A stretch of 64,000 bases of DNA from Candidatus Binataceae bacterium (GTDB lineage Bacteria > Desulfobacterota > Binatia > Binatales > Binataceae), in contig JADMIL010000011.1 in NCBI GenBank assembly GCA_015478645.1, positions 1-64,000 on the forward strand, in the 5' to 3' direction. The notes under the pieces were generated by a model, which did not search any database, had not been told where the DNA came from, and saw only the letters and a list, made by a program, of their open reading frames with translations. Shown piece after piece: positions 42,253-62,057 of the stretch. Each line of letters begins with the position of its first letter. The first letter of the stretch is position 1. The position numbers were made by a program, and so were the translations under genes.

Positions 42253-42278
42253 CGCGCCGCGCAACCGCACTCGGCCCT

Positions 42279-42339
42279 GTCACCCTGAGCGCAGCGAATG
42301 GGTCCCGGATCGGGTTCCTTCGCTGCGCTCACCATGACG
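42279..42339. repeat. Palindromic intergenic repeat, core type
   Basis: GTCACCCTGAGCGCAGCGAA faces TTCGCTGCGCTCACCATGAC across a GGGTCCCGGATCGGG centre. It is the same core as at 50545-50653 and 61841-61947 without the GGAACCTCTGC ends. It starts 27 bases after the amidohydrolase stop. Confidence 0.8.
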
Positions 42340-50179: not shown

Positions 50180-50524
50180 GCGCCGGAGTGAGTCGGGCGA
50201 TCGCCCTTTAATCGGGGAGGAAAGTCCGGGCTCCACAGGGCAGGATGGCCGCTAACGGCGGCGCGGAGCGATCCGCGGAAAGTGGCACAGAGAACAGACC
50301 GCCCGCAAGGGTAAGGGTGAAACGGCGGGGTAAGAGCCCACCGGCGCGCGAGTGATCGCGCGCGCATGCCAAACCCCATCCGGAGCAAGACCCAATAGGA
50401 GGATGAGCGGCCCGCTCACGATTCCTCGGGTATGGTCGCTAGAGCCGGCGGGCAATCGCCGGCCCAGAGGAATGATCGCCGCCCGCAAGGGTACAGAACC
50501 CGGCTTATAGACTCACTCCGGCGA
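50180..50524 (+). ncRNA. rnpB: RNase P RNA, bacterial type A
   Basis: The catalytic RNA of RNase P trims tRNA 5' ends. The closing helix pairs CGCCGGAGTGAGTC (50181-50194) with GACTCACTCCGGCG (50510-50523). Conserved cores are present: GGAGGAAAGTCCGGGCTCCA, ACAGAGAACAGACCGCC, and GGTAAGGGTGAAACGG. CAGAGGAATGATCG and the 3' segment ACAGAACCCGGCTTATAGAC follow. The total of about 345 bases is normal for type A. Open frames overlapping it are spurious. A MITE-like hairpin element begins 20 bases past its end and may serve in termination. Confidence 0.96.
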
Positions 50525-50544
50525 TTTCCACCGGCAGGCGTTAT

Positions 50545-50653
50545 GGAACCTCTGCACAAAGTTAGGTTGTCATTCTGAGCGCAGCGAAGAATCCCGGATC
50601 GGGGACCCATGCGCTGCGCTCAGGGTGACAGCAGAGCCTTGTGCAGAGGTTCC
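50545..50653. mobile_element. MITE-like palindromic element, copy 1
   Basis: A 109-bp element has perfect 15-bp terminal inverted repeats GGAACCTCTGCACAA / TTGTGCAGAGGTTCC. An inner pair is TGTCATTCTGAGCGCAGCG against CGCTGCGCTCAGGGTGACA. It encodes nothing. Its right end touches the TAA stop (50654-50656 on the plus strand as TTA) of the ArsA-type gene. On the other side it follows rnpB by 20 bases. It could fold into one long hairpin and terminate both transcripts. Confidence 0.88.
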
Positions 50654-51937
50654 TTAACGAGTAGCGCGGTGCTTGCCGGAGGATTTTTTTGTCTTATGCG
50701 CGGCGGCAGCGGTGGCCGGTGAGGGCGTGACGCCGAGCGCGGCGGCGGCGCGTTCGAGGAAGGTGCGTCCGGCGCCCGCCTCGATCACGATCGTCGCGAC
50801 TTTGGCCAGCGTCGCGAGATCGCGCACGCCGGCGGCGATCTCGGGCGCGGCGGCCAGTTCGATCCGCGCCGGCAGGTCGCGGGCAAAGCGGGTCGCCCGT
50901 TCGATCGCGGCGCGTTGATGGGCGCCGTAACCCTCGAGGAAGCTGACTAGGGCATCGCTGGTATCGGCGGTATCACGTCCGCGTAAAGGCGCGAGCGTCG
51001 CGCGCATTCGCGAAATCGCCGCCAGATGGGCCGGGGCGCGTCCGGGCGCGGCGACCAGCGCGTCGAAGGTCGCCTCGTCGAGCAGGCGATTGAGCACGAT
51101 CGCGCCCAGCCGCAGACCCTCGGTCTCCATCTGATCGACCAGCGCGCGGGCTTCGCGCAGGCGATCTTCCTCGGCGGTCGTGACCAGTACGAACGTCACC
51201 GCGGGCGAATGCAGCAGCGCGTCGACCTTGCGAAAGCGATCGCTGATCGAGTCGGCGGCCTCGGCCGCGGCGCCGAAAAATTCCGAGATGGCGCTGAGCG
51301 TACGAATCCCGGCGAACTGTTCCAGTTGGCCGACGACGAAGCGCGCGGCGCGGTTGGCGATGCCGAGCACGCTCTTGCCCGCCGCCGCGTAAGGTATAAA
51401 AAGCCATCGCGCGGCGCGCGAATCGAGCAGTCGAATCAGGTGCGCGGGGGCCTGGATGAATTCGAAGGCATGCGCGGCGGGCGGCGTATCGACGATCTCG
51501 ACGGCGAAGCCATTGCCGTTATGCAGGTCGTAGAGCTGTTCGAGCGCGGCGTAGGCTTCGGCCCCGGCGAATTGTTCGGTGAGGCTCTGGTAGAACGAAT
51601 TGTCGAGCATCCGCTGGCGTGCGGCGGGAGTTTTGACCAGGCGCGCGACCAGCCCGTCCCAGACGCGCTTGCTGTCGAGGACCATCGCGGAGAGTTGCAG
51701 CGCGGGGTCCAGGCCGGCGGCGCGCAGGCGGCGCGGGTCGAGGCGGGCGGGGCGCGCACTGAGCCGTTCGAGGCCGAGTGCGTCGCGCAGGCGGCGCGCG
51801 GGGTCGAGCGTGATGACGACGGTTTCGAGCGAGGCGCGGGCGGCAGCCAGGCCGAGCGCCGCGGCGATAGTGGTTTTGCCCACGCCGCCGGGTCCGAGCA
51901 GGACGAGAATCGAGCCTTTTCTGAGCAGTTGCTTCAC
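50654..51937 (-). CDS. ArsA/Get3-type anion-transporting ATPase family protein
   Basis: This P-loop ATPase of the SIMIBI class has the deviant Walker A LLGPGGVGKTTIAAALGLAA, the switch ITLDPARRLRDALGL and VDTPPAAHAFEF. Family members drive arsenite export or insert tail-anchored proteins; bacterial chromosomal ones are mostly uncharacterised. It is a single-domain protein of about 427 residues from GTG 51937. The frame stays open to 52030, but the extension is Arg-rich and lies upstream of the family start. No ars genes are nearby. Lys/His-rich C-terminus. Its stop abuts a MITE-like element. Confidence 0.85.
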   Translation of the reverse strand: MKQLLRKGSILVLLGPGGVGKTTIAAALGLAAARASLETVVITLDPARRLRDALGLERLSARPARLDPRRLRAAGLDPALQLSAMVLDSKRVWDGLVARLVKTPAARQRMLDNSFYQSLTEQFAGAEAYAALEQLYDLHNGNGFAVEIVDTPPAAHAFEFIQAPAHLIRLLDSRAARWLFIPYAAAGKSVLGIANRAARFVVGQLEQFAGIRTLSAISEFFGAAAEAADSISDRFRKVDALLHSPAVTFVLVTTAEEDRLREARALVDQMETEGLRLGAIVLNRLLDEATFDALVAAPGRAPAHLAAISRMRATLAPLRGRDTADTSDALVSFLEGYGAHQRAAIERATRFARDLPARIELAAAPEIAAGVRDLATLAKVATIVIEAGAGRTFLERAAAALGVTPSPATAAAAHKTKKSSGKHRATR

Positions 51938-52113
51938 GGGTCGGCGCCCGCGCGCCCGCGCCACGATAGCATTGTGACGCCGCGCACGCATTTCGTCGGC
52001 GGACTGAAGTGCGCGGTGACGCGTGATCAAGCTGGGGATACTCGAACGGCGGCCGGTTACGGCACCGAATTGCGCAGACTACAATAGTAGCCGCGCAGGC
52101 CGGGGGTAGCCGC

Positions 52114-60965: not shown

Positions 60966-61002
60966 AGGTGCGTCTGTACGTCCTGCGGCGAAATTCCCAA
61001 AA

Positions 61003-61022
61003 GGTCCAGTATAGTTTATCCT
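61003..61022. promoter_or_regulatory. AT-rich divergent promoter region between the small gene and pgeF
   Basis: TATAGT on the plus strand (61010-61015) and TATACT on the minus strand overlap in AGTATAGTTTAT. Either could be a -10 for pgeF or for the small gene-uvrA unit. The -35 regions are weak. Confidence 0.35.
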
Positions 61023-61042
61023 TGACGCTCAGGCTAACGCCG

Positions 61043-61840
61043 ATGCCCCCTCCCGCTTCGATCATCGCAATGCACGCGCCCGCCGCACCGCTGGCGGTGC
61101 TGTCGCCGTGGGCGATCGACGGGCTGAGCCACGGCTTCATGGGGCGCGCGGGCGGCGTCAGCACGGGGGTTTACGCGAGCCTCAACCTGGCCGAATGGAA
61201 CGGCGACGAGCCGGCGGCGGTAGCTGAGAACTGGCGGCGATGGCGCGTCGCGTATCCGCGCTTCACAGTCGCGCGGCTGAGCCAGGTCCACGGCAAGCTG
61301 GTGCATCGCGTGGACGCGTCGTGGGGCGACGCGCGGCGCGCGGGTGATGGAATGGTGACGGCCGCGGCGGGTGTCGCGCTCGGCATCTTCTCGGCCGATT
61401 GCGTGCCGATCCTGATGGTCGATGCCGAGCGGCGCAGCGTCGGCGCGGTCCACGCCGGATGGCGCGGGACGATCGCGGGAATCGCCGGCGAAGGGGTCCG
61501 TGCGATGGCGGCGCTGGGCGCGCGTCCACATGCGATGCGCGCGGCGCTGGGCCCGTCGATCGGGCTCTGCTGCTTCGAGGTCGATGCGCCGCTGGCCGAC
61601 GATTTCGCCCGCCAGCTACCGGGCGCGCGCGAGCATTGCCGGGCGGGCGGGCCGGGCAAGGCCTATGTCGATCTGCGCGCGATTATCCGCGGGCAGTTGG
61701 AGCGCGCCGGCCTCGACCCCGCGGCGATCGCCAACGTCGGTCCGTGCACGCGATGCACGGCGGACGGCTATTTCTCGCGGCGGGCGGGCGGCGGCGCGGT
61801 CACCGGCTTGCAGATGAGCTTCGTCGGATTCGCCCGCTAA
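61043..61840 (+). CDS. pgeF: PgeF/YfiH-family purine nucleoside phosphorylase (laccase-domain)
   Basis: The 265-residue protein is of the YfiH/DUF152 family; members correct misamidated peptidoglycan or phosphorolyse purine nucleosides. The zinc-binding HCH residues are in LSQVHGKLVHRV, FSADCVPILMVD and VGAVHAGWRGTIAG. It ends with NVGPCTRCTADGYFSRR. ATG 61043 or 61070 may be the start. Its TAA stop is joined directly to a MITE-like element. Confidence 0.92.
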   Translation: MPPPASIIAMHAPAAPLAVLSPWAIDGLSHGFMGRAGGVSTGVYASLNLAEWNGDEPAAVAENWRRWRVAYPRFTVARLSQVHGKLVHRVDASWGDARRAGDGMVTAAAGVALGIFSADCVPILMVDAERRSVGAVHAGWRGTIAGIAGEGVRAMAALGARPHAMRAALGPSIGLCCFEVDAPLADDFARQLPGAREHCRAGGPGKAYVDLRAIIRGQLERAGLDPAAIANVGPCTRCTADGYFSRRAGGGAVTGLQMSFVGFAR

Positions 61841-61947
61841 GGAACCTCTGCACAGGCTCTGCGGTCACCTTGAGCGCAGCGAAGGGGTCCCGGATCCGGG
61901 GTTCTTCGCTGCGCTCAGAATGACAATTTAACTTGCGCAGAGGTTCC
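61841..61947. mobile_element. MITE-like palindromic element, copy 2
   Basis: This 107-bp element begins right after the pgeF stop codon. The ends GGAACCTCTGCACAG and TTGCGCAGAGGTTCC match as inverted repeats at 13 of 15 positions. The interior repeats TTGAGCGCAGCGAAGG and CTTCGCTGCGCTCAGAATGA. It is about as long as copy 1 at 50545 and shares its terminal and core blocks. It has no coding capacity and no clear target duplication. Confidence 0.88.
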
Positions 61948-62057
61948 CTCTAGGGCCGCGGGGTCGGCGCCTTGGTGCTTGCGGCCGGCGTGCGGGGAAA
62001 GCACAATTAAACGATTGCGGTCATCTGAAAATTTCGGACATTCTGAAAACCTCGGTC

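Follow-up and report, generated by a model that had tools for sequence, protein, structure and literature searches.

Two copies of a short palindromic repeat each touch the TAA stop codon of a gene in the window, the whole 64,000-nucleotide stretch of DNA analyzed here (contig 59 of a 65% GC genome assembly of 3.06 Mb in 98 contigs, 92% complete). Why should such a repeat end exactly where a protein ends? The original prediction, made from the sequence of the window, had offered either an insertion preference for stop codons and gene 3' ends or selection of the repeat as a portable terminator or mRNA stabilizer. The two copies and their surroundings are as follows.

50185–50523, plus strand: rnpB (RNase P RNA), convergent neighbor (Rfam RF00010, 286 bits)
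50541–50544: left target-site duplication TTAT, probably a decayed TTAA (family rule YTAR)
50545–50653, plus strand: MITE copy 1, 109 bp, with approximately 98% identity to the consensus of the family
50545–50559, plus strand: left terminal inverted repeat GGAACCTCTGCACAA, its end identical in an IS5-family IS of a relative (L148)
50568–50630, plus strand: inner palindromic core, TGTCATTCTGAGCGCAGCG...CGCTGCGCTCAGGGTGACA, a module that also occurs elsewhere without IS5 ends
50639–50653, minus strand: right terminal inverted repeat, exact reverse complement of the left (perfect 15-bp pairing)
50654–50657: right target-site duplication TTAA, with the stop of the ArsA-type gene in its first three positions (TAA, minus strand; family rule YTAR)
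50654–52030, minus strand: ArsA/GET3-type ATPase gene, its stop the landing site (Pfam ArsA_ATPase, E value 1.4e-26)
60968–61840, plus strand: PgeF gene, domain complete, stop at copy 2 (TIGR00726, Cu-oxidase_4)
61837–61840: target-site duplication CTAA, including the TAA stop of PgeF; the other side has decayed (CTCTAG, 61948–61953)
61841–61947, minus strand relative to the family consensus: MITE copy 2, 107 bp, more diverged, with 11-bp perfect ends

The first copy had been described as a 109-bp element with perfect 15-bp terminal inverted repeats, a second inner inverted repeat and no coding capacity, and its coordinates and ends were confirmed, with no ORF of note inside it. Its last base touches the stop codon of the ORF on the minus strand, as had been claimed, and rnpB on the other side is real, ending at 50523 with 21 bases (20 had been given) before the element. 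The second full copy also adjoins a TAA as described, and the stop is that of PgeF. When folded as single-stranded DNA, both copies were strongly structured (z = −8.8 for 50545–50653 and −6.7 for 61841–61947; neither value was reached by any shuffle). Their target-site duplications are imperfect, slightly so at the first copy (TTAT/TTAA) and more decayed at the second (CTAA/CTCTAG), and by these decayed duplications the window copies are older insertions. In five congeners, the gap between rnpB and arsA is 22 to 40 bases long and the element is absent; the basic C-terminal tails of the ArsA proteins are alike (...KHRATR here, ...GHRAAR in the congener G002). The stop codon of the ArsA gene is ancestral; the insertion made use of it and left the protein untruncated.

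In a genome-wide search, 32 copies had perfect 11-bp sequences at both ends, against none for a reversed-pattern control, and the left arm, when as many as 3 mismatches were allowed, occurred 116 times (62 + 54, against 0 + 0 in the control), which excludes chance; the family comprises about 110 copies. From approximately 427 kb fetched around the left arms, 84 complete copies with both flanks were aligned. They are 108 to 109 bp long with a median identity of 96% to the consensus, and 62 of them reach at least 95%. The family is therefore far larger than the two copies of the window, and the original prediction is not refuted on the ground that they are the only ones. More than 20 contigs begin or stop inside a copy (for example, C3, C13, C18, C35, C38, C55, C61, and C64), so the true copy number is somewhat above the complete count; copies of this MITE break metagenome assemblies. 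Copy number, terminal inverted repeats, target-site duplications and matching IS5 elements all support the classification as a MITE.

A longer variant (approximately 209 bp), present three times, keeps these ends around another interior that is rich in AT (present genome, G000 C55:67140–67348, C61:224610–224818, and C62:28765–28973; loci L050, L088, and L054). The inner core also occurs alone, without IS5-type ends, at 42278–42338 of the window, and is repeated in a genome from another family of the class (G027); it has the look of a repeat module that is older than the MITE, independent of it, and was taken up into it. In a bin assigned to another genus (G022), copies are 100% identical to the consensus. 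They were not counted as cross-genus transfer, the bin being probably contaminated: 4 of its 20 fetched stretches (L181, L183, L186, and L188) are 100% identical to the present genome over 2.9 to 5.6 kb. An IS-bearing contig of the same bin (G022:C218) had no match in the present assembly.

The flanks of the complete copies point to the machinery. Identical 4-bp flanks of the form YTAR, the motif of IS5 target duplications (PMC10359306), border 51 of the 84 copies (30 CTAG, 15 CTAA, and 6 TTAG), and YTAR stands on both sides of 58. A genome of the same bacterial family carries a 1,172-bp IS (L148) with ends GGAACCTCTGCACAAGTT and GGAACCTCTGCACAGGT and a CTAG target-site duplication, whose left end shares 18 identical bases with the MITE. 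The 329-amino-acid transposase of this IS belongs to the IS5 family (NCBIfam NF033581, 324.7 bits against a cutoff of 140; Pfam PF05598 plus PF01609). Searches with PF05598 and with protein queries found IS5-family elements among members of this bacterial family, with complete IS (approximately 1.17 kb) that share the ends of the MITE and have YTAR duplications in L148 and others; 12 IS besides that of L148 have YTAR duplications. Approximately 18 bp of the ends match between the MITE and the IS; the interior is the palindromic module found alone elsewhere, which was not seen at IS ends.

The 92% complete assembly of the genome itself has no PF05598 match, that is, no IS5-subgroup transposase, so the source acting in trans is inferred from relatives; the autonomous IS may have escaped assembly, have been lost, or be present in other strains. 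The one PF01609 match, a DDE transposase fragment near a contig end (L097, G000:C68:53243–53389), lacks the inverted ends of the MITE and is not an obvious partner. Most likely, to judge from the shared ends and duplications, the MITE is mobilized in trans by IS5-type transposases. In an Acidobacteriaceae bin, in Halothiobacillus and in Paracidovorax, unrelated interiors are enclosed by these ends and have YTAR or near-YTAR flanks, whereas the flanks of a Diaphorobacter copy are TCAA and CCAA; ends and target thus travel as a pair across phyla.

For the insertion sites, each element was excised together with one duplication, and genes were called on the reconstructed sequence by codon usage. 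With these calls, made with our own codon-usage caller and not an established program, 43 of the 84 sites fall precisely on the stop codon of a gene and the other 41 between genes, and none lies inside a gene. Among other YTAR sites (n = 809), 79 are at stops (10%) and 270 in coding DNA, and random positions strike a stop codon in 0.11% of cases. The genes whose stops were hit are well supported, with a median coding score of 61 and a median length of 254 codons. In the congeners G001 and G004, a sister MITE has the same core and the ends GGAAGCTCCGCACAA; by our own tally, 15 of its 25 copies abut the TAA or TAG of an ORF with strong coding signal (coding score above 15). An excess of copies at stop codons, without which the original prediction would have failed, is thus present. 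The insertions also gather at 3' ends more widely, since 71 of 84 (85%) lie on a gene end or within 100 bp past it, compared with 214 of 539 non-coding YTAR sites (40%).

Is the stop codon itself preferred? Compared with all YTAR sites, the odds ratio for stops is about 10. The elements favor CTAG in a GC-rich context (flank GC, 0.70 versus 0.56 for intergenic YTAR sites), and non-coding sites matched on tetramer and GC predict 24.5 stops (17 to 33) against the 43 observed, a 1.75-fold excess. When matching was limited to sites on a 3' end or within 100 bp past it, 44.0 stops were expected (37 to 51) and 43 observed. The apparent preference for the stop as such vanished with this matching on context and 3' position and was rejected: the stop codon adds no preference of its own. 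Stops are struck because YTAR contains TAA or TAG, and the duplication restores the stop. What had been predicted as an insertion preference therefore stands for the enrichment at stops and 3' ends and falls for the stop per se.

The same counts bear on whether, beyond YTAR, there is active targeting of gene 3' ends or stops by the transposase or its complex, for example, via transcription or supercoiling. Both the surplus of insertions on or just past 3' ends and the 1.75-fold excess of stops under matching on tetramer and GC alone speak for such targeting, but within 3' flanks the stop is not preferred, the loss of harmful insertions yields the same picture, and only 2 of 13 full-length IS abut the stop of a strongly coding ORF (in other species, scored with the coding model of the present genome). 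Active targeting is thus unlikely. Target choice and GC explain the 3'-flank concentration only in part. We tentatively attribute it to the loss of harmful insertions; the attribution is incomplete, because promoter-proximal intergenic sites are not depleted (15 of 41 insertions versus 183 of 460 sites). It is correspondingly improbable that IS5-type MITEs of this lineage are steered to gene 3' flanks by a factor other than YTAR and selection; if they were, gene ends would truly be a haven for integration, much as in the site choice of Tn7-like elements.

Less probable still is that the hairpin is retained at stops to end transcription or to protect mRNA. The consensus hairpin is very stable (RNA minimum free energy, −80 kcal/mol, besides the DNA z score of −8.8), and half of the copies stand directly after a stop. 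Neither window copy has a terminator-like site, however, and the pattern of an intrinsic terminator, a GC hairpin followed by a U-tract, was not found: no T-tract follows the elements (mean, 1.4 T per 8 bases), with a run of 4 T in 2 of 43. Twenty copies run with the gene and 23 against it, a random orientation, though the two strands differ in pairing. Single substitutions in the copies break pairs in 217 cases and keep them in 59, compensatory double changes number only 4, and variation in stems and ends is roughly equal to that at unpaired positions, the picture given by neutral decay. The stop-codon excess, moreover, is gone in matched sites. The terminator or stabilizer role that had been suggested thus lacks support, with no U-tract, no consistent orientation and no upkeep of pairing. 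That the element is a REP/BIME-like palindromic repeat instead of a classical transposon derivative is scarcely credible, for although the core without IS5 ends (42278–42338 and G027) shows a separate repeat inside, the complete element is bounded by IS5 ends and makes 4-bp YTAR duplications, which do not define REPs, and its size argues against a 20- to 40-bp palindrome tied to a RAYT.

The contact with stop codons is best explained by a non-autonomous IS5-type MITE whose YTAR target, together with purifying selection, brings it about (probability roughly 0.93). In this MITE, a palindromic repeat module lies between the ends of an IS5-family IS. An IS5-family transposase acting in trans would recognize these ends, make a staggered cut at YTAR (CTAG, CTAA, TTAG, or TTAA) and join the ends to it, and those 4 bases would be duplicated upon insertion. 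At 65% GC, YTAR outside coding interiors falls in large part at gene ends; an insertion at a stop regenerates that stop on the gene side, leaves the protein unchanged and so survives, and insertions within genes would be lost, presumably through removal by selection. Abutment on the ArsA-type and PgeF stops would then be a side effect of the choice of target combined with purifying selection.

The closest known system is MITEPsy1 of Pseudomonas syringae pv. phaseolicola, a 100-bp element with target-site duplications CTAG or YTAA that is attributed to an IS5-family IS (PMC3189936). Both elements are non-coding, with IS5-like terminal repeats (GGAAGGTCTGAAAAAGCC in MITEPsy1, GGAACCTCTGCACAAG here) and a 4-bp duplication, but MITEPsy1 has 6 copies against about 110 here, and the interiors are unlike (PMC3189936). 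Two of its 6 copies interrupt loci, a stop-codon pattern is not mentioned in the consulted passages of that paper, and its transposition was shown by trapping, whereas the mobility of the present MITE is inferred from sequence (PMC3189936). IS of the IS5 subgroup (NF033581-type, PF05598 plus PF01609) have ends and YTAR duplication in common with the MITE but carry a transposase gene, which the MITE lacks, its interior being a palindromic module not found at IS ends. Correia elements and RUP resemble it in size (about 107 bp), in their many copies, in encoding no protein and in being thought to be mobilized in trans; they use TA targets, and RUP is linked to IS630-type IS, unlike the YTAR target and IS5 relationship found here (PMC2229807). 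A search of the open-access literature, outside which most subscription journals lie, found no publication on MITEs concentrated at stop codons, and a literature search found none for the inner core sequence. The present element is a new MITE of a known, IS5-derived kind with an unusually clear and explainable stop-codon pattern.

These results caution against inferring function from repeats joined to stop codons. They also explain, simply and in numbers, how a selfish element can build up to about 110 copies although the genome is compact: the stop codons are part of its target tetramer and are restored by the duplication, which leaves approximately half of its surviving insertions invisible to the protein. 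The same logic would be expected in GC-rich bacteria wherever the target of an IS is YTAR-like.
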